Of a stretch of DNA of 64,000 nucleotides, positions 8,085-21,230 are shown one piece after another. The stretch spans positions 124,001 through 188,000 of the forward strand of contig NZ_BSTL01000012.1 in the NCBI RefSeq assembly GCF_030269485.1. Direction: 5' to 3'. This DNA comes from Actinoplanes sp. NBRC 103695 (lineage in GTDB: Bacteria > Actinomycetota > Actinomycetes > Mycobacteriales > Micromonosporaceae). The translations under genes and the position numbers were made by a program. How positions within the stretch are numbered: position 1 is the first letter of the stretch; each line of letters opens with the position of its first letter. The notes below the pieces were generated by a model. It searched no databases and had not been told where the DNA came from. It saw nothing but the letters and a program-made list of their open reading frames with translations.

Positions 8085-8984
8085 TCAGTTCGCCCACCGC
8101 TTGATCGAGAAGGCCCCGTTCGAGCGGGTCACCTCGGCGGCACCTCCGGCACCCAGGTGCGCCGGCACCACCAGGCTGTTGGTCATGGCCGCCTGCTCGA
8201 GAACGCGTCGCCGGGACCGGGCGGCCTCGGCCTGGTCCTCGCTCAGACAGGTGTCGTGATCGGGCTCGATCATCTGAAGCGGGATGTGCACGATGTCTCC
8301 GACGAACAACGCCCGATCCGTTCCGGACTCGAGTCGCAGCACGGCTGACCCCGGGGTGTGACCGGGGGCCGGATCGAGCGACAGGTTGCCGTCGATGCGG
8401 TGGCTGTCGCCCTCCCAGAGCACCGCCTGACCAGCCTGGACGACGGGAAGGACGCTGTCTTCGAAAGAGGCCTTGCTGTCAGTGGGTGACGCGAACGTCG
8501 ACCGCTGCCCATGGCCGTTGGCGGGGTTCCAGTAGTCGTAGTCGGCCTTACTCATCAGGTATTTCGCGTTGGGGAACGTGGGAACCCACTCCCCGTCGAC
8601 CAGACGGGTGTTCCACCCGACGTGGTCGCCATGCAGGTGGGTGTTGACCACCAGGTCCACGTCCGCCGGTTGCACCCCGAGCGCCTCCAGCTGGGCGAGG
8701 AAGTCACCGTCGCGCCCGTCCAGCAGGGGATGCGTACGCCGTTTGTCGTTGCCCAGACCCGTGTCGACCAGGACCGTGCGGCCGTCGCTCCGCAACACCC
8801 AGGTCTGAAAGTTCGCCTGGTAGTCGCCCGTCGAGGCGTCCAGGAAATCCGGTGCCAGCCAGGACTCGTGCTGTCGCCACAGCTCGTCGGGCACCGAGGG
8901 GAACAGGATGCCGGCGGGGGCGAAGGGGCCGCTCCATTCGATCACCCGAGACACGTCGACATCACCGATACTGAATTCCTTCAT
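8085..8984 (-). CDS. Metallo-beta-lactamase-fold hydrolase
   Basis: About 299 residues. The metal-binding motif NTHLHGDHVGWN (HxHxDH) is intact, with further ligands expected in PAPGHTPGSAVLRL and FVGDIVHIPLQM. An early strand reads TVLVDTGLGNDKRRTHP. This layout is that of the MBL-fold group that includes lactonases of the quorum-quenching type and many uncharacterised hydrolases, so the substrate is open. Starts at ATG 8984 (MKEFSIGDVDV) and GTG/ATG positions upstream are possible; 8984 is closest to the domain. First gene of the MBL-NTF2-AraC unit; its promoter region holds three GAGACG/CGTCTC half-sites. Confidence 0.85.
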   Translation of the reverse strand: MKEFSIGDVDVSRVIEWSGPFAPAGILFPSVPDELWRQHESWLAPDFLDASTGDYQANFQTWVLRSDGRTVLVDTGLGNDKRRTHPLLDGRDGDFLAQLEALGVQPADVDLVVNTHLHGDHVGWNTRLVDGEWVPTFPNAKYLMSKADYDYWNPANGHGQRSTFASPTDSKASFEDSVLPVVQAGQAVLWEGDSHRIDGNLSLDPAPGHTPGSAVLRLESGTDRALFVGDIVHIPLQMIEPDHDTCLSEDQAEAARSRRRVLEQAAMTNSLVVPAHLGAGGAAEVTRSNGAFSIKRWAN

Positions 8985-9006
8985 GCCTTGACCGTACGTT
9001 CGGGTC

Positions 9007-9055
9007 ATGAGACGTGTAATGCTCAGTCGTCTCGCACGATTAATTCATCGTCTCA
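9007..9055. promoter_or_regulatory. Cluster of GAGACG / CGTCTC half-sites between divergent genes
   Basis: In the region between the MBL-fold gene (minus) and the monooxygenase gene (plus), ATGAGACG occurs at 9007-9014, and its complement CGTCTC at 9028-9033 and CGTCTCA at 9049-9055. The first pair forms an inverted repeat with a 13-bp spacer. These could be binding half-sites for the AraC regulator of the neighbouring operon. No proof beyond repetition and position. Confidence 0.4.
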
Positions 9056-9232
9056 GGAGGCTGCTGTCTTGGGTTCACCGTCAAGCGGCTAAAAAAGTGT
9101 GGCGGCCCGCTGACGGCGATGATCGACGCGCGCAGTCCGTCCTGGCAACCGACGCTTGTTCGAGTCCTCTGTCCGCGTACGAAAGGGCAGGCTCCTCGCT
9201 CGCCGGGATCGGTCGCCCTAGCCTCGGCGAAC

Positions 9233-10240
9233 ATGATTGACAACGCAACAATTCGGATCCTTGCTGATAACGCGGCCCTCACCGAGACTCAACGGCGGCC
9301 GGCGGCTGCGAGTCTCGACGCGGTTCGGCAGGCCGGTGGGTTCAGCGGGTACGACGGATCTATCGCGGATCTGACCCACGCCATCGCGGATCTGGCGCGG
9401 GGGTGTCCGTCGACCGCCTGGATCGTGGCCACCTCGACCACCCACAAGATGCTCGCCGAGGGCCTGCCCGAACCGGTGCGGTCGAAACTGCTGGCGGATC
9501 CCGGAGCGATCGCCGCCGGCAACATCATGCCGATCGGCCGTGCGGTCCCGGCCCCGGGGGGCGTCCGGATCTCCGGCCTCTCCGCGAACGTGTCCGGAGC
9601 CGAGGACGCGACGTGGATGAGCTTCGGCGTGCTTCTCGAACAACCCGGCGACCAGCCGCCCCAGGCGATGATGGCCCACATCGAAGCCGCCCAGGTGACG
9701 ATCCAGGACACCTGGCGGGTGGCCGGCATGCGCGGCACCGGCAGCCACACCGTCGTCTTCGAGGACGTGCTGGTTTCCCACGACCACCTCGGACCGCCCC
9801 CTGACCTGCAGAGCGCCGAGTTCACGAAGTACGCGCTCACCGTGCTCGCCACGGTCGTGGGCAGTGCCCGCGGTGCGCTCGATCGGACCTACAATCTTTT
9901 CGAATCGGGCAAGAAGGTCTTCATGACCCCCACCCCGCTGACCGAGTCGCCAGTCGCGCAAGCCTGGCTCGACGAGGTCACCCGGCTGGTGGAGAAGTCC
10001 GAGAACCTCATCGAGGAGATTCTTCGTACGGTCGACGAGCCGCCGGCAACCCACGGCGGTCAGCTGGCCGAGGCCGTCACCGACAGCCTCGCGGCACTGG
10101 ACAAGATGCTCGACCTGAACGGCCTCGGCGGCTTCGCCGAGTCGAACCCGGTGCAGCGCTTCTGGCGCGATGCGACGGTCGCCAGCCGGCACCCACTGCT
10201 CAACCGGTTCTTCGCGTCCCACATGGCCTCTCTCGCCTGA
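9233..10240 (+). CDS. Acyl-CoA-dehydrogenase-fold flavin monooxygenase (HsaA/HpaB-like)
   Basis: A 335-residue protein; the ATG at 9233 is preferred over a frame extending to 9119 because similarity begins here. Block LADLARGCPSTAWIVA and the mid-domain pattern GGVRISGLSANVSGAEDATW, followed by DTWRVAGMRGTGSHTVVFED, are typical of the flavin-dependent hydroxylases related to acyl-CoA dehydrogenases (group D monooxygenases such as HsaA). The C-terminal helical domain ends with RFWRDATVASRHPLLNRFF. It is shorter than the usual 380-400 residues, mostly at the N-terminus. These enzymes need a separate flavin reductase, which is not adjacent. Its divergence from the MBL unit suggests a shared catabolic or detoxification role. 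Confidence 0.75.
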   Translation: MIDNATIRILADNAALTETQRRPAAASLDAVRQAGGFSGYDGSIADLTHAIADLARGCPSTAWIVATSTTHKMLAEGLPEPVRSKLLADPGAIAAGNIMPIGRAVPAPGGVRISGLSANVSGAEDATWMSFGVLLEQPGDQPPQAMMAHIEAAQVTIQDTWRVAGMRGTGSHTVVFEDVLVSHDHLGPPPDLQSAEFTKYALTVLATVVGSARGALDRTYNLFESGKKVFMTPTPLTESPVAQAWLDEVTRLVEKSENLIEEILRTVDEPPATHGGQLAEAVTDSLAALDKMLDLNGLGGFAESNPVQRFWRDATVASRHPLLNRFFASHMASLA

Positions 10241-10256
10241 GGCCGGCGCGGTTTGA

Positions 10257-10283
10257 GCTGGCTGTGCCTGCGGCACGGCCAGC
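10257..10283 (+). terminator. Hairpin after the monooxygenase gene
   Basis: GCTGGCTGTGCC (10257-10268) pairs with GGCACGGCCAGC (10272-10283) over 12 bp with one G-U pair and a 3-nt loop. It starts 17 bp after the stop codon. There is no T tract, as is common for actinomycete terminators. Confidence 0.6.
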
Positions 10284-10406
10284 GACCTTGGTGCCTCCGG
10301 CCCGGCGCGGGACAGCCTCGCAAGAGCCTCACGATTCGACCCGCGCCCCTGGTACGCGCGTACTGGGCGGACTCGGCGGCGAAGATCGCGCCGATACCGT
10401 GCGCCG

Positions 10407-11792
10407 GTGACAATCAAGACTGAAGCAACCCGGGCGGTCAACACTAGTGCCGTTTTCGGCACGGTGCTGGTGGCGGTGTTCGTATCGAATCTTGACCTCT
10501 TCGTCGTCAACGTCGCCATGCCGGAGATCGCCCGGGACTTCGGCGGAACCTCGCTCGTGACGCTGTCCTGGCTGCTCAACGCGTACGCGATCGCCTTCGC
10601 GGCGTTGCTGGTGGTCTTCGGGCGCCTGGCCGACCGGAGTGGCCACCGCCGGGGCTTCATCGCCGGTATCGTCGTCTTCACCGTCGGCTCCCTGCTGTGC
10701 GCGGTGGCGCCCAGCGTGGCCTTCCTGATCGCGGCGCGGGTCGTCCAGGCCGCCGGTGCGGCGGCTCTGCTGCCGACCTCGCTGGCCCTGCTCCTCGCCG
10801 TCACCCCACTGGAACGGCGGGCCGGTGCGGTGCGGGCCTGGAGTGCGTCCGGCGGGGTCGCCGCCGCACTCGGACCGGTGGTCGGCGGCCTGCTGGTCGA
10901 ACTCGACTGGCGGTGGATCTTCGTCATCAACGTCCCGGTGGGAGTGGCGGCGTTGCTGATGAGCCGGAGGGTCCTCCCCGAGATTCGGGGAGAGAAGACC
11001 GGTGTCCGACCGGACCTGCTGGGCGCCGCACTTCTCACGGTCGCCGTCGGCACGCTCGCGCTCGGGCTGGTGCGTTCCAACGACTGGGGCTGGACCTCGC
11101 CACAGGTGGTCGGCAGCTTCGCCGTCACGCTCGTGCTCGGCACCTGGTTCCTGATCCGATCGGCGCGCCATCCGTCGCCGGTCGTCGAGCTCCCGCTGCT
11201 CCGCACCCCGCAGTTCGGTCCCGCCACGATCGCCATGCTGTTGTTCTCGGTGGCCTTCTCGGCCATGGTCCTGTCGGTCGCGCTGTGGGCGCAGAACGGC
11301 TGGGGGTACTCGGCTCTGCGGGCCGGCCTGGCACTGGCCCCCGGTCCGCTCATGGTGCCCCTCCTCGCGATCGCCGCCGGCCCGCTGGTGCGCCGATTCG
11401 GCGCCGGCCCGATCGCTGCCGTGGGCAACGTCGCGCTGGCCGGCGGTTTGGCGCTCTGGATCCTCAACGTCGGTCAGACACCGCGCTACGCGGCCGATCT
11501 CCTGCCCGGCCTGATCCTGGTCGGGATCGGTGTCGGCCTCGCCCTGCCGACCCTCATGGCCGTGGGCAGCAGCGCGCTGCCGCCGGACCGGCTGGCCACC
11601 GGTTCCGGCATCCTCAACACCGGGCGCCAGGTCGGAGCGGTCGTCGGGGTCGCGCTGCTGGTCAGTGTCATCGGCTCGCCGCACACCCGGGCCGAGACGG
11701 TCGACGCCTTCCAGAGCGGTTGGACGGCCACGATCGTCGTCTGTCTCCTCGGTGCGGTCACCGCACTGTTCATCCGCCGTCCGCAGCAGTAG
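10407..11792 (+). CDS. MFS transporter, DHA2 (EmrB/QacA) family
   Basis: A 461-residue membrane protein starting at GTG. Diagnostic motifs: DLFVVNVAMPEIARDF after helix 1 (family motif D1), GRLADRSGHRRGFIAG (motif A), and RVVQAAGAAALLPTSLAL with SASGGVAAALGPVVGGLLVE (motif C of antiporters). The later GSGILNTGRQVGAVVGVALL is the conserved helix 13 stretch of 14-helix DHA2 proteins. Proton-driven export of drugs or metabolites is the family role. The downstream alpha/beta hydrolase gene follows after 19 bp, so the two form an operon that echoes the hydrolase-exporter pair at 1.4-3.6 kb. Confidence 0.88.
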   Translation: MTIKTEATRAVNTSAVFGTVLVAVFVSNLDLFVVNVAMPEIARDFGGTSLVTLSWLLNAYAIAFAALLVVFGRLADRSGHRRGFIAGIVVFTVGSLLCAVAPSVAFLIAARVVQAAGAAALLPTSLALLLAVTPLERRAGAVRAWSASGGVAAALGPVVGGLLVELDWRWIFVINVPVGVAALLMSRRVLPEIRGEKTGVRPDLLGAALLTVAVGTLALGLVRSNDWGWTSPQVVGSFAVTLVLGTWFLIRSARHPSPVVELPLLRTPQFGPATIAMLLFSVAFSAMVLSVALWAQNGWGYSALRAGLALAPGPLMVPLLAIAAGPLVRRFGAGPIAAVGNVALAGGLALWILNVGQTPRYAADLLPGLILVGIGVGLALPTLMAVGSSALPPDRLATGSGILNTGRQVGAVVGVALLVSVIGSPHTRAETVDAFQSGWTATIVVCLLGAVTALFIRRPQQ

Positions 11793-11811
11793 TCGAAAAC
11801 GAGGTAACACC

Positions 11812-12666
11812 ATGGCCACGACACCGTTCCAGAAGGTGACGACCGTCCTGATGCGGACGGCGTTCGGCGCGCTCGAGCGGGTGGCTCCCGGGCCGGGCAG
11901 CGTCCTCGCGACGCGGCTGTGGCTCAGCCCCGCGCACACCTCCCTGCCCGCCCTCGGCGTCTCCGGAGGCCGCAGCTACACCGTGCCGGTCAATGGCGGC
12001 ACCGTGCTGGCCGAGGAGTGGGGCGAGGGTCCCGCGGTCTTCCTGATGCACGGCTGGGGCCGCGCCCGCCGGGACTTCGACGCGTTCGTCCCGGCGCTGG
12101 TGAGTGCCGGCTACCGGGTGGTCGCCTTCGACGCCGCGGGACACGGCGACTCCGCATCCGGACCGCAAGGCGGCCGGCGATCGTTGCTGCCCGAGTTCAT
12201 CGACGCGCTGACCGCCGTGATCGAGCGGTCCGGGCCGGCGTACGGCATCATCGGCCACTCGGCCGGCGGGTCCAGCGCGGCCCGGGCGGTGCTGGACGGT
12301 CTTGTCACCGAGCGGCTGGTGCTCATCGCGCCGATGGGCAACCTGCTCCACTACACCGCTCAGCTCCGGCCGGCGCTGGGCTTCGGCGACCGGATCGACG
12401 CCGGCTTTCATCGGCTGCTGGAGCAACGGTCCGGCCGGCCGCTCACGGACTTCCACGTCGCGGACGCGGCGGCCGGGCGGACGGACCTCCCACCGTTGAT
12501 GGTGGTGCACGACAAGGAGGATCGGCGAAATCCGTACTCCGACGGCGTGGAGATCGCCGAGGCGTGGCCCGGCGCCGAGCTGCGGTCCACGGCCGGCCGA
12601 GGCCATCTCCGGATCCTGCGCGACCTGGCCGTGGTGGACATGGTCGTCGGTTTCCTGAAGGCGTAG
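11812..12666 (+). CDS. Alpha/beta hydrolase
   Basis: A 284-residue hydrolase; ATG 11812 has GAGG upstream and follows the transporter stop closely, so a longer in-frame extension is rejected. Key blocks: oxyanion region VFLMHGWGRARRDF, GHGDSASGP, nucleophile elbow GHSAGGSSAAR (Ser at about residue 147), acid in VHDKEDRRNP and catalytic His in AGRGHLRILRD. It has an amphipathic N-terminal helix but no clear signal peptide. Substrate unknown; the pairing with an exporter suggests modification or detoxification of an exported compound. Confidence 0.85.
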   Translation: MATTPFQKVTTVLMRTAFGALERVAPGPGSVLATRLWLSPAHTSLPALGVSGGRSYTVPVNGGTVLAEEWGEGPAVFLMHGWGRARRDFDAFVPALVSAGYRVVAFDAAGHGDSASGPQGGRRSLLPEFIDALTAVIERSGPAYGIIGHSAGGSSAARAVLDGLVTERLVLIAPMGNLLHYTAQLRPALGFGDRIDAGFHRLLEQRSGRPLTDFHVADAAAGRTDLPPLMVVHDKEDRRNPYSDGVEIAEAWPGAELRSTAGRGHLRILRDLAVVDMVVGFLKA

Positions 12667-12669
12667 ATC

Positions 12670-13296
12670 TCAGATCAGGCCGTTGTGCAACGCATACGCC
12701 ACGGCGTGTGACCGATTGCGCAGCTCGAGTCGCTGGATCATCCTCTGGCTGACGGCCTTGACCGCGCTCGTGGATATCCGGATCCGCCCGGCGATCTCGT
12801 GTGGGCTGTCACCGGCGGCGGTCAGGCGTAGCACGTCGAGTTCCGTCCTGGTGAGGGCCGGGACGGAACTGTTGTCCGGGTGCACGTCACGCCGTACGCG
12901 CTCGATCTGGGTCAGAAGGTCGTTGACCAGACCGGGCGGCATGGCGGGGCCGTTGCGGGAGACGGCGACCGTCAGGTCCACCAGGCGCTCGGCGGTCACC
13001 CCGGTGCGAGACAGGATCGCGACCACCCGGCACTCGAGCGCGGTGAGCACGTCACCGTCGCTGATCACGTCGGTGATCAGGACGACCGGGCAGCCGTCGG
13101 ATGCGAGCCGGCGCAGCGAGGCGGCCACGTCGGTGGTCAGGCCGGCGCAGCAGGCAATACGGACGTCGGCCTTGGTGCGCTCGTGCTCGCCCAGCACGGC
13201 GATTTCCGGACGGATCGTTGCAAAGGCGGCGATGCCCGCGGCGCTGAGCGGATCCGAGGTCAGCAGGTCGACACGTACTTGCTCCACATCGGTCAT
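12670..13296 (-). CDS. LuxR-type regulator with degenerate receiver domain
   Basis: A 208-residue protein with the size and order of a NarL/FixJ response regulator. The C-terminal helix-turn-helix reads LTRTELDVLRLTAAGDSPHE and ISTSAVKAVSQRMIQRLELR, ending NRSHAVAYALHNGLI. The N-terminal 120 residues retain a receiver-like alternation of strands and helices (VDLLTSDPLSAAGIAAF), but the usual acidic pocket and phospho-acceptor Asp context are not recognisable, so it is probably phosphorylation-independent. It diverges from the SARP gene, and the 61-bp gap contains an 11-bp-period CCTTC repeat. A paralogue lies at 31681-32274. Confidence 0.82.
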   Translation of the reverse strand: MTDVEQVRVDLLTSDPLSAAGIAAFATIRPEIAVLGEHERTKADVRIACCAGLTTDVAASLRRLASDGCPVVLITDVISDGDVLTALECRVVAILSRTGVTAERLVDLTVAVSRNGPAMPPGLVNDLLTQIERVRRDVHPDNSSVPALTRTELDVLRLTAAGDSPHEIAGRIRISTSAVKAVSQRMIQRLELRNRSHAVAYALHNGLI

Positions 13297-13309
13297 CGTG
13301 ACGAGGCCG

Positions 13310-13328
13310 CCTTCGGAGAACCTTCAGG
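13310..13328. promoter_or_regulatory. CCTTC direct repeat with 11-bp period (putative SARP box)
   Basis: CCTTCGG at 13310-13316 and CCTTCAGG at 13321-13328 start exactly 11 bp apart, one helical turn, in the gap between the divergent LuxR and SARP genes. SARP regulators are known to bind heptameric direct repeats spaced by 11 bp. A near-identical site lies at 16208, and a related one at 32364-32379. The autoregulatory role is inferred. Confidence 0.55.
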
Positions 13329-13357
13329 CGGGCCCGGCACTGATAGCCTCTGGTCCC

Positions 13358-16246
13358 ATGGCTCTGGACGGACGCTTCGAGTACCGCGTCCTCGGGCCCT
13401 TGGAGACGTCGTTCGGCGGCGTTGTCTTCTCGGTCGGCGGGCCCCGTCATCGTGCGTTGCTGGCGGCGTTGCTGGTCCGGCCCAACACCGTCGTCTCGGC
13501 CGACCGGCTGGCCGAGTCGCTGTGGGAGCAGCCTCGGCCTCGATCCAAGGACCTGATGTACGGCCGGATCTCCGAGATCCGCTTGGCGATGCGCAAGGTC
13601 AGTGGCGGGCCGGTGCCCGATTTCGAGACGCACAGCGCCGGTTATCTGCTCCGGGTCGCGGAGGACGCCCTCGACGCGCAGCGCTTCGAGCGGATGGTCG
13701 CCGGTGGCCTGTCCGCCGCCGCGGCAGATCGGCCCGCCGAGGCGGCTGAGCAGCTCAGTGAGGCACTCGCCCTGTGGCGGGGCCCAGCGCTGCCCGAATT
13801 GGCCCAACTGCCCGAGGCCGCCGCCGAGATCGCGCGGCTGGACGAGTTGCGGATGCGGGCGGTCGAGGCTCGGATCGACGCCTTCATGGCCGTCGACCGG
13901 CATCAGGAGGTGACCGCCGAGCTGGTTGCGCTGGTGGCTCAGCATCCGCTCAACGAAGGCCTCTGGGCTCAGCTCATGCTGGCCCGGTATCGCTCCGGTC
14001 AGGTCGGCGACGCCATCGCTACCTTCGCCGCGGCCCGCCGCCAGCTGACCGAGCAGCTCGGCGTCGAGCCGGGCACGCCGTTACAAGGCCTACACCAGCA
14101 GATTCTGCGGCGTGACCCGGCGTTGACGCCGCGAGCACCGGCCGGGCCCGCACCCCGGTCACCGCTGCGGTCACGGTCCCTGACCAGTTTCGTCGGCCGC
14201 GATCCGGAGCTGGCGACGGTTCGCGAGCTGCTCGGATCGCACCGGCTGGTGACCGTGACCGGCATCGGCGGGGCCGGTAAAAGCCGGCTCGCCATCGAGG
14301 CCGCGGCGCAGGTCGGCGAGGACGACGACTGCCCGGTCTGGCTGGTCGAACTGGTCGCGCTGGCCCAGCCGGATCTGCTGGCCGACGCTGTCGGTGACGC
14401 GCTCGGGCTCCCGTCGCACGGCACCCGGCCCCGCGAGGACCTGATCGAGGAGCATCTGAGTGACAGCCGCGGTCTGCTGATCCTGGACAACTGCGAGCAC
14501 TTGGTGGACACGGTCGCGGGTTTCGCCGTCTGGCTCCTCGCCGCCTGCCCGGGATTTCGCATCCTGGCCACCAGCCGGGAACGGCTCGGGGTGACTGGTG
14601 AGGTCCTGTTGCCGCTGATCGGCCTGGCCCTTCCCGAGGCCGGTGCGGATACGCCGGAGGCCGTCCGGCCGAGTGCCGCGGCCCAGTTGTTCGTCGCGCG
14701 AGCCGTCGCCGTGGATCCGGCCTTCGAGCTGACCTCCGAGACGGCGGGCGCCGTGACCACCATCTGCCGGGAGCTGGACGGCCTGCCCTTGGCGATCGAG
14801 CTGGCGGCCGCGCATGCCAACGCGTTCACCGTGACCGAGATGGCCGACCGCCTCGACGACCGCTTCGCGCTGCTCGGTCAGGGCGACCGGACGGCCGAGC
14901 CTCGGCACCGGACGCTGCACGCCGTGATCGACTGGAGCTACCGGCTCCTCGGTGCCGACGAGCGTCGCCTGCTCGACCGGCTGAGCGTGTTCGCCGGCCG
15001 CTTCGACCTGGCCTGGGCGGAGCAGCTCAGCGCCGATCGGTACGCGCCGGTCCACGTCGCGCGGCTGATCGCCGCGCTGGTCGACAAGTCGTTGCTGCTC
15101 CGGGAGTCGGGCCGGTACCGCATGCTGGAGACACTGCGCGCGTACGGGATGGAGCGGCTGGCCGAGACCGGTGAGCTGGCCTCCGTCCGGGACCGGCACG
15201 CCGCCTTGGTGGCCGGCCTGGCCGATGAGCTGAGCAGCGGTTACCTCGGCAGGGGACGCGGCCGGACAGTGCACTTGCTGGACACGACGATGGAACAGTT
15301 CCGCACCGCGATGGAGTGGACCGTCGCCAACGACGACGCGGAGACGGCCCTGCGCATCGCCTCGGCCCTGACCACCTACTGGCACATCACCGGGCAGTAC
15401 GCGGTGGGCCGCCGGTGGCTGCAGCACGCCTTGAACGCCTGTGGCGAGTCATCGCCGGCCCGGCGGGCCAAGACGTTGAGCGGGCTGGTGGCGCTGGCCT
15501 CGCTGCAGCACGACCTCCCGGCGGCCACGGCCGCCGGCGAGGAGGCCGCGGAGCTGTTCCGGCGCGTCGGTGACGTGCGCGGGTACGGCCTGGTGATGCG
15601 CCGCCTTGCCACCGCGGAAGCGCTCTCCGGCGATCTCGACCGGGCCGAGACGTTCCTGGCCAACGCTGTGGACGCCGCGCGGGAGGCGGAGTCGCCCTGG
15701 CTGCTCGGGTGGGCCAACACCCAGCTCGGCCTGGTCACGTCCTTTCGCGGCGACTGGGAGAGCACGGCGCGGCTGGCCGTCGAGGCGGAGAAGCTGGTGC
15801 TGGACCTCGGCGATCCGGAGGTGCTCGCCTTCGCCTGGCTGCTCCGAGCGGAGTCGGCCCGCAACCTCTCGGGTCCGACCGCTGGCGCCCACTGGCTGCG
15901 CGATGCGCTCCGTCTCCTCAATCAGGTCGCGATGACCTGGAGCATCACCATGGGGCTGCATTACGCATCACTGGTCCTGGCCGATCTCGGCCGGCCGGGG
16001 CGGGAACTGACCGTTCTCTCCGCCGGATACGAGCTGCGCCGCAAGTCCGGTGCCGCCTTCTTCTCCCCGCTCGCCCGGTACCAGGAGAAACGACTCGAGC
16101 AGCTGCGCGTGATTCTGGACACCGAGGAATTCGACGCGCGATGGGAGGCCGGCCGGGCGACCCCGGTCAGCGAGCTCATCGACGAGTTGTGCCGGCAACT
16201 GGAGGCACCTTCGGAAAACCTTCAGGCGGGTACGGAGCCGACCTGA
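13358..16246 (+). CDS. SARP/AfsR-type transcriptional regulator with NB-ARC-like ATPase
   Basis: A 962-residue regulator. Residues 5-100 form the OmpR-like winged helix (YRVLGPLETSFGG at the start, AGYLLRV at the end); residues 105-250 are the bacterial transcriptional activation domain (ALALWRGPALPEL, LGVEPGTPLQGLHQQIL). The STAND ATPase follows, with Walker A GIGGAGKSR near 302-310 and Walker B GLLILDNCEHL; residues 600-962 contain TPR-like helices. The ATG at 13358 is chosen because upstream residues would be antisense to the LuxR gene. Such proteins switch on antibiotic or development genes in actinomycetes. No biosynthetic cluster is obvious nearby. It may bind the CCTTC repeats before and at the end of its own gene. 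Confidence 0.9.
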   Translation: MALDGRFEYRVLGPLETSFGGVVFSVGGPRHRALLAALLVRPNTVVSADRLAESLWEQPRPRSKDLMYGRISEIRLAMRKVSGGPVPDFETHSAGYLLRVAEDALDAQRFERMVAGGLSAAAADRPAEAAEQLSEALALWRGPALPELAQLPEAAAEIARLDELRMRAVEARIDAFMAVDRHQEVTAELVALVAQHPLNEGLWAQLMLARYRSGQVGDAIATFAAARRQLTEQLGVEPGTPLQGLHQQILRRDPALTPRAPAGPAPRSPLRSRSLTSFVGRDPELATVRELLGSHRLVTVTGIGGAGKSRLAIEAAAQVGEDDDCPVWLVELVALAQPDLLADAVGDALGLPSHGTRPREDLIEEHLSDSRGLLILDNCEHLVDTVAGFAVWLLAACPGFRILATSRERLGVTGEVLLPLIGLALPEAGADTPEAVRPSAAAQLFVARAVAVDPAFELTSETAGAVTTICRELDGLPLAIELAAAHANAFTVTEMADRLDDRFALLGQGDRTAEPRHRTLHAVIDWSYRLLGADERRLLDRLSVFAGRFDLAWAEQLSADRYAPVHVARLIAALVDKSLLLRESGRYRMLETLRAYGMERLAETGELASVRDRHAALVAGLADELSSGYLGRGRGRTVHLLDTTMEQFRTAMEWTVANDDAETALRIASALTTYWHITGQYAVGRRWLQHALNACGESSPARRAKTLSGLVALASLQHDLPAATAAGEEAAELFRRVGDVRGYGLVMRRLATAEALSGDLDRAETFLANAVDAAREAESPWLLGWANTQLGLVTSFRGDWESTARLAVEAEKLVLDLGDPEVLAFAWLLRAESARNLSGPTAGAHWLRDALRLLNQVAMTWSITMGLHYASLVLADLGRPGRELTVLSAGYELRRKSGAAFFSPLARYQEKRLEQLRVILDTEEFDARWEAGRATPVSELIDELCRQLEAPSENLQAGTEPT
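16208..16227. promoter_or_regulatory. Second CCTTC direct repeat with 11-bp period
   Basis: CCTTCGG at 16208 and CCTTCAGG at 16219 repeat the site at 13310-13328 almost base for base over about 24 bp. This copy is inside the last codons of the SARP gene and 58 bp before the start of the XRE gene, so it would serve as that gene's upstream activation site. Confidence 0.5.
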
Positions 16247-17097: not shown

Positions 17098-17192
17098 GTT
17101 GAAGGGCGCGGCGCCGGCGCCGCGTGGCCCCGGATGTGCGCCTGAATGGGCAAAAAGCTTTCGTTACGAAGCAGGCGGCCGACACTCGGATC

Positions 17193-18302
17193 ATGACCGT
17201 CATGAACGTCGTGCGTGGGCACCGGGTTGATGCGCTGATCCGGGCGTGCGAGGGTGCCGCCTCCGAGCTGGCCCTGTTCGAGGCTGTCTCCGATCAGCTG
17301 CGCGAACTGGTCCCGTTCGACGGAGCCGCCTGGTTCGCCACCGATCCGGCCACCCTGCTGGCCGCCGGCGCCGCGCGGGTGGAGAACGTCGAGCGCGGTG
17401 TCTGCGCCACCTACTGGGAACGGGAGTACCTGGTGGAGGACGCTCTGCTGTTCCGGGACGTGGCCCGCAGTTCGCAAGGCGTGGCGACCCTGTTCGACGT
17501 CACCGGCGACCGGCCGGCCGACAGCGCGCGCTATCGCGAATACCTGGCCCCGCAGGGTTACGGCGATGAGCTGCGGGCCGCCTTCCGGCTCGGGAATACG
17601 ACCTGGGGCGTCCTCGACCTGTATCGGGATCGGGTGCGCACCCCCTTCTCGAAGCGTGAACGGGAGCAGATCCAGCAGATCGCGCCGATGGTGGCGCGAG
17701 CGCTGCGCGCCTTCGCGGCCGCGCGGCGTGAGCCGGCGGCGATCGGCGGCGCCGGCACGGCGCTGTTCGACGATCGAGGCGCCCTGATGTCGTTCGACGC
17801 CCAGGCCGGACGACTGTTCGAGGAGATCGGCGGCGGGGGCTGGCAGGCCTTTCCGGCCGCCATGACACCCGTGCGCGCGGTCACGGCACGAGCCACCGCG
17901 GTCCTGCGGGGCCGGGACCGCGGACCGGCCGCCACCCGCCTGCGGTCAGCGGCCGGTCGCTGGATCTCCCTGCGCGCCTCGCACCTGCACGGACCGGACG
18001 GCTCACCCGGGCCGACCGCGGTGACCGTGGAGCCGGCGCGGTCGGAACAGATCGCGCCGATCATGGCAGCGGCCTATGCCCTCACGCCGCGCGAGCAGCA
18101 GGTCACCCGGGCGGTGGCGCGGGGGCTCTCCAGTCACGAGATCGCTGTCGAGCTCTTCCTGTCGCCGCACACGGTGCGGGACTACCTCAAGACCATCTTT
18201 GTGAAGGTCGGCGTGACCAGCCGGGGCGAGCTGGTCGCCACCCTGTTCACCGAGAACCACCGGGACACGGCGCACGAGACTGTCGACCAGGTCGAGTGGT
18301 GA
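17193..18302 (+). CDS. LuxR-family regulator with GAF-like sensor domain
   Basis: About 369 residues, starting at ATG 17193. Residues 30-190 look like a GAF domain (ELVPFDGAAWFATDP at the start, WGVLDLYRDRVRTPFSKRER at the end). The C-terminal helix-turn-helix is clear: ALTPREQQVTRAVARGLSSH, then LFLSPHTVRDYLKTIF and VGVTSRGELVATLF. There is no receiver domain, so activity is probably tuned by a ligand bound to the GAF-like part. The gene ends 93 bp before the Pup-like gene on the same strand; control of that locus is possible but unproven. Confidence 0.87.
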   Translation: MTVMNVVRGHRVDALIRACEGAASELALFEAVSDQLRELVPFDGAAWFATDPATLLAAGAARVENVERGVCATYWEREYLVEDALLFRDVARSSQGVATLFDVTGDRPADSARYREYLAPQGYGDELRAAFRLGNTTWGVLDLYRDRVRTPFSKREREQIQQIAPMVARALRAFAAARREPAAIGGAGTALFDDRGALMSFDAQAGRLFEEIGGGGWQAFPAAMTPVRAVTARATAVLRGRDRGPAATRLRSAAGRWISLRASHLHGPDGSPGPTAVTVEPARSEQIAPIMAAAYALTPREQQVTRAVARGLSSHEIAVELFLSPHTVRDYLKTIFVKVGVTSRGELVATLFTENHRDTAHETVDQVEW

Positions 18303-18346
18303 CTGGGATCCGCGTTCACCGCAACCTCCTTTTTTGAACCGGACCC

Positions 18347-18377
18347 GGCCGGCTGCCGTTGTCAGGGGCAGCCGGCC
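18347..18377 (+). promoter_or_regulatory. 11-bp perfect hairpin in the leader of the Pup-like gene
   Basis: GGCCGGCTGCC (18347-18357) pairs perfectly with GGCAGCCGGCC (18367-18377), loop 9 nt. A run of six T lies just before it (18329-18334). The hairpin ends 6 nt before the ribosome-binding site TGGAGG, so it could be the terminator of the LuxR gene or an attenuator/translation-control element of the Pup-like operon. Confidence 0.6.
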
Positions 18378-18395
18378 GAAATCTGGAGGTAAGAG

Positions 18396-18671
18396 GTGTC
18401 CAGCGAGCAGCAGCATCGTGGCAAGGCGGGACAGGGCAGCGACGCGGCGGAGCCGACGGCGGAGGCGCCGAACGACCCCAGCTCCACCGCGGAGGAAGCG
18501 TCGGAGCGGGCCCAGGCGCTGGTCGACGACATCGACGATGTTCTCGACGAGGCCGACCAGTTGATGCGTGATCACCTGGGCATCGATGCCGACAAGAAGA
18601 TGACTGACCCTGAGGTGGAGAAGGCGATCGCGAGGGCGGTCGCCGGGTTCGTGCAGAAGGGCGGGCAGTAG
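18396..18671 (+). CDS. Pup-like protein (prokaryotic ubiquitin-like modifier family)
   Basis: A 91-residue acidic protein starting at GTG 18396 behind TGGAGG. It has the Pup layout: a disordered hydrophilic N-terminus (MSSEQQHRGKAGQGSD), an acidic helical middle (ALVDDIDDVLDEADQLM; compare the DD-x-DE-I-DDVLEE core of known Pup) and the hallmark tail GFVQKGGQ at the very C-terminus. In Pup the terminal Gln is deamidated by Dop and the resulting Glu ligated to lysines by PafA. Compared with the usual 60-70 residues there is an insert of roughly 20 residues before the tail (HLGIDADKKMTDPEVEK). No dop, pafA or proteasome genes are adjacent. Instead it overlaps an ATP-grasp gene by 1 bp (TAGTG). 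Probably a second, specialised Pup. Confidence 0.75.
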   Translation: MSSEQQHRGKAGQGSDAAEPTAEAPNDPSSTAEEASERAQALVDDIDDVLDEADQLMRDHLGIDADKKMTDPEVEKAIARAVAGFVQKGGQ

Positions 18672-19597
18672 TGGACGGCCGACCGGCCTCCGAGCCGGTC
18701 CTGCTCCTGGGAAGTTTCGGGCTCGGTCTCGACGCGGACTTCGAGGATCAACTGCGCCTGGCGGTCCGGCATGTCTCGTTCCGCAGCATCGAGGACATCG
18801 CCATCCAGGTGATCACCGGGTCCGTGCGCATGACGGAGATCATGGAAGGACGAGATCTGCGTGAGTTCGCCTCCGTTCACATGCTGTCCTATCCGCGAGG
18901 CGCCACGAACCTGCTGAACTCCGTGGCCGACTACCTGAACTCGCAAGGTGTCCGGGGAGTCAACGTCGACATGCTGGATGCGCCGACGAAGTTGTACAAA
19001 TACGTGCGAATGGCGAATCGTGACATTCCAGTGCCCGCGACCACCTACCTTCCGCACGCCCGTCTGCGGAACGCGTTTCCGGAGCTGGCCGAATCGTTCG
19101 ATCTGCCGTTCGTTCTCAAGTCCGTGGCCGGAGGGGCGGGCCGGTCAAGGACGGTGGTCGGCGATGCGAGCACCTTCGACGAGGCCGTCCGCCGGGCCGC
19201 TCGGGAACAGGTGCGCCTGCTGGCGCAGGAACTGGTGCCGGCCGATGCTCATCACCGGCTCGTGGTCTTCGGCGGCCGAGTCCGGGCGGCGCAGGAACTC
19301 GACGAGGCCGAGGAGAGCGATCTGCTCCGCCGGCCTCGATGGGAAGGAGCGCCTTCCCTCCCGCTCGACGAGGTTCCGGAATCGGCCGCCGAACTCGCCG
19401 TTGCCGCCGCACGAGCGATGAAGTACGACCTAGCCGCCGTGCACCTGATCAGAAACTGGACCACAGCACAATGGCAGGTGGTGGACATCTCCGCCGGCCC
19501 GCTCGCCGGCGCCGGTCTTTACGTGGAGGGTGTCAGCACCGCGTACGCCCGGTTTCTGGCTGAGACGACGCGTACCGATCAGCCTCTCCTGGGGTAG
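18671..19597 (+). CDS. ATP-grasp ligase (RimK-like) coupled to the Pup-like gene
   Basis: A 308-residue protein whose GTG start overlaps the Pup-like stop. Residues 1-100 form a pre-ATP-grasp domain (SYPRGATNLLNSVADYLN). ATP-binding elements follow: LDAPTKLYKYVRMA, IPVPATTYLP, Lys150 in LPFVLKSVAGGAGRSR, AQELVP for adenine contact, and HHRLVVFGGRVRAAQEL. The metal-binding segment near the end reads VVDISAGPLAGAG, where many ATP-grasp enzymes have E-x-N; the Asp may substitute. ATP-grasp enzymes join carboxylates to amines through acyl phosphates, as in RimK and the graspetide ligases. The natural guess is that it acts on the Pup-like protein or attaches it to a target; this is inference from coupling. 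Confidence 0.78.
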   Translation: MDGRPASEPVLLLGSFGLGLDADFEDQLRLAVRHVSFRSIEDIAIQVITGSVRMTEIMEGRDLREFASVHMLSYPRGATNLLNSVADYLNSQGVRGVNVDMLDAPTKLYKYVRMANRDIPVPATTYLPHARLRNAFPELAESFDLPFVLKSVAGGAGRSRTVVGDASTFDEAVRRAAREQVRLLAQELVPADAHHRLVVFGGRVRAAQELDEAEESDLLRRPRWEGAPSLPLDEVPESAAELAVAAARAMKYDLAAVHLIRNWTTAQWQVVDISAGPLAGAGLYVEGVSTAYARFLAETTRTDQPLLG

Positions 19598-19781: not shown

Positions 19782-19817
19782 GCCGTCACGTCCAGGTCCT
19801 GAACTGAGGAGTCATTG

Positions 19818-21230
19818 GTGAGCGACAGCACGACCGAGGTCGACTACCTGGTCATCGGCGCCGGGACGGCGGGCATGGCCTTCACCGACACGCTGATCGG
19901 CCATTCGGACCGTACCGTCATGATGGTCGAACGCCGGCACGCCCCGGGAGGGCACTGGAACGACGCCTACCCCTTCGTCCGGCTGCACCAGCCGTCGGCC
20001 TTCTACGGGGTCGACTCGCGGGAACTGGGCAACAACCGGATCGACGAGACCGGCTACAACGCGGGACTGTACGAACGCGCCTCAGGACTCGAGATCCTCG
20101 CCTACTACCGCTCGGTCATGGAGGACCACTTCCGCCTCTTCGGACAGGTGACCTTCCTGCCGATGTCGGACGCGGTAGTGGACCGGGGGAGGGTCGCGGT
20201 GACGTCGCGGCTGACCGGCTCCGTGCGCGAGATCACGGTGCGACGGAAGGTCGTCGATGCCCGCTACCTGGAAGGTGCCATCCCGGCCACGCACCGGCGT
20301 TCCTTCGACGTCGACGACGATGCCCGCTGCATCGCGGTCAACGACCTGGTCCGGGTCGACGAGGCGGCGGACGGCTTCATCGTCCTCGGCGGCGGCAAGA
20401 CGTCCATGGACGCGTGCTTGTGGCTGCTCGACAACGGCGTCGATCCGGACGCGATCACCTGGATCCGGCCGCGCGACGCCTGGTTCCTGCCCCGGGACAC
20501 CGTTCAGCCCCGGGTGAAGGCCGGCGACACCATCATCTCGACCGCGGCGATCGTCGAGGCGGCCGCCTCCGCCGTCTCCGCTCGCGACCTGTTCGAACGT
20601 CTGGAGGCTGCCGGAAGCCTCTCCCGGCTCGACTCCTCGGTCGAGCCGACCATGTACCGCGGTGCCACCGCCAGCCGGTCCGAGCTCGAGGCGCTCCGGC
20701 GGATCACCCGCGTCATCCGGGGCCGCCGGGTCCGGCGCATCGTTCGCGATCGAATTGTCTTCGACGACGGTGACCTCATGACCACCGGTCGTCCGCTGTA
20801 CGTCGACTGCACGGCCTCCGCGCTGTCGGTGCCACCGGTGCGTCCCGTCTTCGAGGACGGCCGGGTCACGATTCAGCCTCTCCTGGCCGGGCTTCCCTCG
20901 TTCAGCGCCGCGCTGACGGGCTACATCGAGGCCACTCGCGAGGACACCGCGGAACAGAACAGGCTCGCACCGCCGAGCCGATACCCAGTCACGGCGAACG
21001 ACTGGATCTCGATCCGCCGCGACGGCATGCTCGCCCTTGCGCGGTGGGCTCAGGTGGACGACGTCCAGAGCTGGGTCCAGCGCACCCGGCTCAACCTGAC
21101 GTCCGGCGCCGAGACGCACATGACGGAGCCGAGGGTGGCCGAGGCGGCGGCGACCACCCGCATGCTGGGCAAGCTCGCGGTGGAGAACCTGACGAAACTC
21201 AGCCTTGATCTCGAACCCGAGGGACGGTAG
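19818..21230 (+). CDS. FAD-dependent oxidoreductase
   Basis: A 470-residue flavoprotein. GTG 19818 is chosen because GAGGAG ends 6 nt before it; the TTG three bases earlier is too close. The N-terminal Rossmann motif reads YLVIGAGTAGMAF with ERRHAPGGHWNDAYPFVRLH next, as in flavin monooxygenase-like proteins; a second nucleotide-binding motif FIVLGGGKTSMDACL lies in the middle, and VDCTAS precedes the last third. The two GxGxxG sites suggest FAD plus NAD(P)H binding. It resembles uncharacterised NAD(P)-binding proteins of actinobacteria. It lies 220 bp after the ATP-grasp gene, with repeat copy A in its leader, so it may or may not be part of the Pup-like operon. Confidence 0.82.
   Translation: MSDSTTEVDYLVIGAGTAGMAFTDTLIGHSDRTVMMVERRHAPGGHWNDAYPFVRLHQPSAFYGVDSRELGNNRIDETGYNAGLYERASGLEILAYYRSVMEDHFRLFGQVTFLPMSDAVVDRGRVAVTSRLTGSVREITVRRKVVDARYLEGAIPATHRRSFDVDDDARCIAVNDLVRVDEAADGFIVLGGGKTSMDACLWLLDNGVDPDAITWIRPRDAWFLPRDTVQPRVKAGDTIISTAAIVEAAASAVSARDLFERLEAAGSLSRLDSSVEPTMYRGATASRSELEALRRITRVIRGRRVRRIVRDRIVFDDGDLMTTGRPLYVDCTASALSVPPVRPVFEDGRVTIQPLLAGLPSFSAALTGYIEATREDTAEQNRLAPPSRYPVTANDWISIRRDGMLALARWAQVDDVQSWVQRTRLNLTSGAETHMTEPRVAEAAATTRMLGKLAVENLTKLSLDLEPEGR

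Follow-up and report, generated by a model that had tools for sequence, protein, structure and literature searches.

The window, that is, the whole stretch of 64,000 nucleotides of Actinoplanes sp. NBRC 103695 that was analysed, carries a gene for a Pup-like protein directly followed by a gene for an ATP-grasp protein, and this pairing is conserved outside proteasome loci. The cassette formed by the two genes occurs in some soil actinobacteria and is rare and mobile. As judged from alignments, its small protein is a Pup paralogue that keeps helix 1, helix 2 and the tail of Pup and has in addition an insert between the helices. Our best explanation, which we put forward tentatively, is that the cassette may be a two-gene, self-contained mobile unit in which the ATP-grasp partner would form an amide bond on the Pup that belongs to it, most likely at the C-terminal Gln or Glu.

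An earlier note on this DNA had placed two coupled open reading frames here, and both were found where it placed them. The features referred to below, all on the forward strand, are as follows.

18346..18378, + strand: perfect 12-nt inverted repeat with a loop of 9 nt, between the LuxR-type and the Pup-like genes; putative operator or mRNA hairpin
18385..18390, + strand: GGAGGT, Shine-Dalgarno-like, ahead of the GTG start of the Pup-like gene (from the sequence)
18396..18671, + strand: Pup-like protein (Pup paralogue), 91 aa (Pfam PF05639, 34.4 bits; 31 aligned Pup-like proteins)
18531..18545, + strand: IDDVL codons, core of Pup helix 1 (sequence and alignments; canonical helix limits from an excerpt of PMC8599861)
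18552..18629 (approximate), + strand: insert of about 24 residues that separates Pup helix 1 from helix 2 (from motif spacing)
18648..18668, + strand: codons of the FVQKGGQ tail (from the sequence; conserved in relatives)
18669..18673, + strand: TAGTG, in which the stop of the Pup-like gene and the GTG start of the ATP-grasp gene overlap (from the sequence)
18671..19597, + strand: RimK/LysX-like ATP-grasp protein, 308 aa (TIGR00768 below cut-off; AlphaFold2 model and Foldseek)
19118..19120, + strand: codon of K150, counterpart of RimK K141, presumably the ATP lysine (alignment; 13 of 13 proteins)
19442..19444, + strand: codon of H258, which aligns with RimK D248, presumably a metal ligand (alignment)
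19484..19492, + strand: codons of D272-I-S274, which align with RimK E260-V-N262, presumably metal ligands (alignment)

The 91-residue protein, which the earlier note had recognised as Pup-like, ends in FVQKGGQ and lies above the gathering score of the Pfam family PF05639 (34.4 vs 27 bits, E 4.2e-8); other cassette copies reach 31.3 bits (L005) and 59.1 bits (L013), and the record of the shorter L013 copy names it ubiquitin-like protein Pup. The equivalog cut-off of the NCBIfam Pup model TIGR03687 was missed (18.2 vs 41.45 bits), with an alignment covering tail residues 82-91 only. The C-terminus of the window protein, GGQ, is of the GG[Q/E] form by which Pup is recognised; a neighbourhood with dop, proteasome genes and pafA, by which pup genes are also recognised, was not found around the window gene. 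The 91-aa sequence has no cysteines. According to the excerpt of PMC8599861, canonical Pup bound to Dop has helix 1 at residues 44-53, helix 2 at residues 57-64 and the terminal Gln at position 71. Between the motifs ID.[VL]L and [FY]VQKGGQ there are 10 residues in canonical Pup and 17 in the S. anthocyanicus type, the insert of which is only 7 residues long. The corresponding spacing is 34 in the window protein, which places its extra residues between the two helices.

An alignment was made of 31 Pup-like proteins (the window protein, P0001 and P0012-P0040). Most positions conserved in at least 90% of them belong to helix 1, the insert or the tail, Q5 being the exception; the D, E, T and K residues conserved within the insert or next to it are D55, T58, E61, K66, D71, D76 and K82. 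The terminal residues are kept in 30 (Q88), 29 (G90), 30 (G91) and 29 (Q92) of the 31 sequences. A GG[Q/E] end is present in 27 of the 30 long-insert proteins (26 GGQ, one GGE), the remaining three ending in DGQ, SGQ and, in P0039, PQR, and all seven proteins of the S. anthocyanicus type end in GGQ. The GGE end is that of the relative P0015; it also occurs in the ordinary Pups P0054, P0057, P0061 and P0064 among those listed, and these ends fit Glu as the working form. The tail of P0039 departs after KGF, perhaps through a frameshift or because the copy is decayed or misread. P0048, a metagenomic Pup-like protein of 86 residues that ends in GGE and has another kind of insert, may represent a third subtype.

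The partner of the Pup-like protein has, weakly but clearly, a divergent ATP-grasp fold of RimK/LysX type according to family models and a predicted structure, in agreement with the RimK-like assignment of the earlier note. Its score against TIGR00768, the RimK alpha-L-glutamate ligase family, is 41.9 bits for a cut-off of 143.4, its LysX_arch (NCBIfam) score of 25.8 bits is also below cut-off, and the protein reaches the curated cut-off of none of the Pfam and NCBIfam families listed for it. With the Pfam RimK model the window copy scores 17.7 bits, below the threshold of 21, and the L013 copy 56.6, above it. The AlphaFold2 model (pLDDT 74.2) has Foldseek matches that include RimK, LysX, ArgX:LysW, PsnB, PruB and synapsin, some of them solved with a small protein or peptide substrate (RimK-RpsF, ArgX and LysX/ArgX-LysW, PsnB-precursor). 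Whole-length superpositions are loose (TM 0.50 and rmsd 15.7 for the best match). For the C-terminal part, RimK, LysX and many D-Ala ligases are tied at Z 14.1 in VIA-align, and thus the fold does not fix the reaction.

The metal site was compared in 13 ATP-grasp proteins, those of the seven distinct loci described below and P0003-P0008. We take K141 of RimK to be its ATP lysine and D248, E260 and N262 to be its metal ligands. The equivalent of K141 is present in all 13 proteins. The aspartate of D248 is kept in none of them (H in 9, N in 2, Y and R in one each), the E260 position is occupied by D in 11, E in one and N in one, and the N262 position by S in 10 and N in 3. The motif V-V-D-I-S, to which the earlier note had drawn attention in the window protein, is present, and its guess that the variation marks a special subfamily agrees with the changes at this site in 13 of 13 proteins. 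In the L016 copy (9956-10918, attributed to S. oryzae) the motif is N-V-S, with neither of the usual acidic metal ligands left. R replaces K107, presumably the first ATP lysine, in four of the 13, and D62, R76, K150, T265 and W268 are invariant in all. Going by the aligned residues, a degenerate metal site in all 13 counts against ordinary ATP-grasp catalysis.

A two-protein structure model was calculated from the L005 read-through chain with an alignment of 25 rows, which contained 20 of the 29 Pup-like proteins P0012-P0040 and a shortened window row and left out the six rows that were ATP-grasp only. No usable complex was obtained (pLDDT 39.7, pTM 0.24); the Pup part has two predicted helices, with block means of pLDDT of at most 61.

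The pair was found at seven distinct loci, the window and six in Streptomycetaceae, and the Pup-like gene is directly upstream of the ATP-grasp gene in 7 of 7, with identities between the ATP-grasp proteins down to 30%. All six were found from the ATP-grasp side. Four of them are L004 of Streptomyces iranensis, L005 of S. griseorubiginosus, L006 of Streptantibioticus parmotrematis and L016, attributed to S. oryzae. The others are on linear plasmids, two of S. chartreusis (L012 and L018) and two of S. anthocyanicus (L013 and L019), each like pair being counted once. The stop and start codons in the window share one base at 18671 (TAG at 18669-18671, then GTG), as expected from the TAGTG coupling proposed in the earlier note. 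This spacing of -1 nt compares with 3 nt in five loci and 2 nt in L013, the last value assuming an in-frame GTG ahead of the annotated start. The stop codon of the Pup-like gene is TAG in all seven loci. The canonical pup of the same genome as the window also stops with TAG; the TAG of the cassettes may thus be inherited, and we rejected it as a special signal. Stop-codon read-through to a fusion was likewise rejected as a general feature: the two genes are in frame 0 in five of seven loci, and this is not so in the window and L013. When the search was made from the Pup side at 1e-12, three of 394 genomes of the family of G489 matched (G489, G668 and G1086), all of them carriers of the ATP-grasp gene, and two plasmid searches with Pup queries returned two records each, these four being the ones in which the ATP-grasp gene is present. 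The doubt raised in the earlier note that the pairing might not be conserved in relatives is thereby removed, the pair being present in 7 of 7 distinct loci outside proteasome loci.

The cassette Pup is not the only one in its genome, as the earlier note had feared it could be. On contig C30 of the Actinoplanes sp. NBRC 103695 assembly (10.8 Mb, 180 contigs), a different contig from that of the cassette, there is a full mpa-dop-pup-prcB-prcA-pafA locus. It consists of a proteasomal ATPase, a Pup-ligase-family gene, Pup (71 residues, 103 bits), two proteasome subunits and a second Pup-ligase-family gene, the gene names being assigned by order. This complete locus elsewhere in the genome rules out a relocated canonical pup. 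One canonical pup and two Pup-ligase-family genes were also found in each of four other carriers (G489, G668, G1041 and G1086, taken as the genomes of L005, L016, L004 and L006, respectively), which makes 5 of 5 carrier genomes examined. When these four whole genomes were searched with Pfam, only the canonical pup reached E 0.001 and the cassette copies did not; a plain family search therefore misses these four.

The surroundings of the cassette vary, and a mobile-element gene lies beside it in five of the seven loci. In S. iranensis (L004:8744-14097) it is the cargo of a Tn3-type element bounded by an inverted repeat of 37 nt with 86% identity at 8744-8780 and 14061-14097, the longest among the 15 pairs listed. 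Inside the repeat are a resolvase (8787-9635), the cassette (9722-10942), a Tn3 transposase domain (11586-13634) and a DUF4158 piece, the transposase being seen as two ORFs. None of 413 matching plasmid records covers 80% of the element, and in the 15 plasmid records among the matches listed it is the transposase part that is matched. A DUF4158 piece is also found just ahead of the Pup gene in L019. A tyrosine recombinase comes just after the cassette in L013, an ISAs1-type transposase in L012, and other transposase ORFs in L006 and L016. The window and L005 have no mobile-element gene next to the cassette among the ORFs scanned. The GC content of the cassette is below that of its surroundings in 7 of 7 loci (0.59-0.67 vs 0.65-0.69). 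A phage origin was rejected, with no match in 50,697 phage records and, in viral contigs, 45 stretches that matched a pattern, none of them a relative. A known defence system was rejected too, the four proteins given to PADLOC having no match.

We compared all ORFs of at least 70 aa all against all, over the whole window and about 10-15 kb on each side at the other six loci, and only the cassette itself was common to all seven. ABC-transporter ATPases are found in L004, L012 and L013, and in the window 40 kb away; a 398-aa protein is shared by L004 and L005; transposases are shared by L012 with L016, L006 and L005; and there are single regulator-like pairs. We judged these partially shared neighbours to be generic. 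A LuxR-type regulator with a GAF domain (window 17124-18302) is directly ahead of the cassette and has no counterpart in the other loci; most of its length aligns to the NCBIfam model BagY/FevT, with a score below cut-off (285.5 vs 700 bits). After the cassette, at 19815-21230 of the window, there is a divergent NAD(P)/FAD-binding oxidoreductase with weak matches, also without counterpart elsewhere in the loci. The inverted repeat at 18346-18378 is just upstream of the ribosome-binding site of the Pup-like gene, with no T run after it. The 12-nt repeat was not found ahead of any other copy; different short repeats are present there in L004, L013 and L016, and none in L005, L006 and L012.

Both genes are under purifying selection in the four Streptomycetaceae locus pairs compared: dN/dS is about 0.19-0.33 in the Pup-like gene and about 0.19-0.27 in its partner. 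Distances between loci, measured pairwise on one protein, are correlated with those measured on the other (r 0.972, 1 of 5000 permutations; r 0.962, 44 of 5000, when L013 is left out), and such matching is expected anyway for adjacent genes moving together. Searches from the ATP-grasp side, in genome samples that overlap, matched one of 300 genomes of the family of the window (its own genome; single-protein query), three of 394 of its class (own genome included), two of 392 of the genus of G489 and one of 396 of the phylum of the window (own genome). In the protein database there are at least seven ATP-grasp relatives, one of them 99% identical, and at least 54 Pup proteins by profile search (30 long-insert, seven of the S. 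anthocyanicus type and 17 others), both searches having scored about 8,000 candidates that share most words.

By analogy, the cassette may work like LysW/LysX or like pupylation. With pupylation (Pup, Dop, PafA) it shares helix 1, helix 2, the VQKGG[Q/E] tail and the Pfam Pup family, and the canonical genes are present in the five carrier genomes tested. It differs in that an insert of about 24 (or 7) residues separates the helices, in its position away from dop, pafA and proteasome genes, and in having an ATP-grasp partner rather than an enzyme of glutamine-synthetase fold. RimK, the glutamate ligase of ribosomal protein S6, acts on the C-terminus of a small protein, and its ATP-grasp fold and K141 are kept in the cassette partner; the partner nevertheless scores below the cut-off, has D248, E260 and N262 mostly replaced, and shows no link to S6. 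The pairs LysX-LysW, PsnB-PsnA2 and RimK-S6 are precedents for ATP-grasp enzymes of this kind acting on a small protein or peptide. The S. anthocyanicus type is without most of the insert and yet keeps its partner, so the shared target of the partner should be helix 1 and/or helix 2 together with the tail. The strictest feature shared in this region is QKGG[Q/E], and the best reading of it would be deamidation by Dop followed by amide-bond formation by the partner at the terminal Glu. Host Dop would convert the terminal Gln to Glu, a step that the GGE-encoding relative would make unnecessary. The partner would recognise helix 1 and the tail of its own Pup, activate the terminal carboxylate with ATP and join it to an amine, which may be a protein lysine or a small molecule. 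Its action would then resemble that of LysX on LysW, or that of PafA on Pup, with an enzyme of another fold taking the place of PafA. A more specific form of this reading, a second Pup-derived conjugation system in which the cassette's own ATP-grasp ligase, not PafA, joins the terminal Glu to lysines or small amines, we consider possible but doubtful.

Conservation of the tail is equally well explained by the Dop, PafA and Mpa of the host. In the main rival reading the paralogue would be used by the host enzymes and the partner would be an ATP-binding pseudo-enzyme that holds, guards or delivers it, possibly as an adaptor, decoy or antagonist of host pupylation. A non-catalytic partner seems rather unlikely to us, and it is a serious candidate on the strength of the aligned metal site, where the RimK ligands are changed in 13 of 13 proteins and the ATP lysine is kept. 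The helices and tail bound by Dop and PafA are both kept, hosts have Pup-ligase-family genes in 5 of 5 cases, and the Foldseek matches include synapsin, an ATP-grasp protein for which no catalytic activity is known. The ATP-grasp gene is, however, under purifying selection in the four pairs compared, which together with the five residues invariant in 13 of 13 (D62, R76, K150, T265 and W268) speaks for an active partner, and loss of D248 alone need not kill catalysis: the first ligand position of carbamoyl-phosphate synthetase is not an acid. That the small protein could be a substrate for peptide modification, as in graspetide systems (e.g. PsnA/PsnB; microviridin is another example), we regard as improbable. 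The partner would then cross-link or decorate acidic and lysine residues of the insert, with the Pup parts as leader or handle. A small precursor gene followed at tight spacing by an ATP-grasp gene, PsnB and PruB among the fold matches, and the D, E, T and K residues conserved within the insert or next to it would agree with this. Against it, the S. anthocyanicus type keeps the ATP-grasp gene without most of the insert, and a modified peptide would not need to keep the GGQ tail, whereas the cassette substrate is a Pup paralogue with precisely this tail kept. No protease, transporter or export gene is common to all seven loci, and no known maturase or graspetide model is among the NCBIfam matches at E<=1.

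It is still less probable, in our opinion, that the tail Glu is an amino-group carrier, which would carry and protect a small amine during its conversion by other enzymes, the part that LysW plays in the synthesis of lysine and arginine. The likeness to LysW-LysX/ArgX lies in a small acidic protein with C-terminal Glu or Gln beside a RimK/LysX-type ATP-grasp protein, in LysX and ArgX (with LysW) among the fold matches and in the sub-cut-off LysX_arch score. LysW, however, has a cysteine zinc motif, for which the cassette Pup has no cysteines, the metal site of the partner is changed, and a carrier pathway requires additional enzymes and a peptidase for release, none of which is common to the seven loci (they could lie elsewhere). 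The absence of shared pathway genes favours a self-contained tag over a carrier pathway. Least probable of all, we would say, is an addiction unit resembling toxin-antitoxin pairs, in which a labile Pup-like protein, readable by the proteasome ATPase, would restrain the ATP-grasp partner. Its place as cargo inside the L004 Tn3-type transposon and on the linear plasmids (L012/L018, L013/L019) would suit such a unit, as would the order with the small gene first. But neither protein matches a PADLOC model, we know of no toxin of ATP-grasp fold, and a strictly kept GGQ tail should not be needed.

No description of a Pup/ATP-grasp pair was found in the open-licence literature, and an earlier mention may exist; in the excerpt of PMC3511204, ATP-grasp occurs once, in the reference list. 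Pupylation is described with a single ligase and a single depupylating amidase in the excerpt of PMC12288473. If conjugation by the cassette is true, one cell would have two Pup-type tags and two unrelated ligase folds, the second tag being spread by transposons and plasmids. If the partner is non-catalytic, the cassette would represent a new type of mobile regulator acting on the proteasome pathway of the host. A second Pup that is conserved and has a partner other than PafA would give a compact, mobile and testable system, and it would show that Pup, like ubiquitin, has diversified into several tags served by different enzymes.
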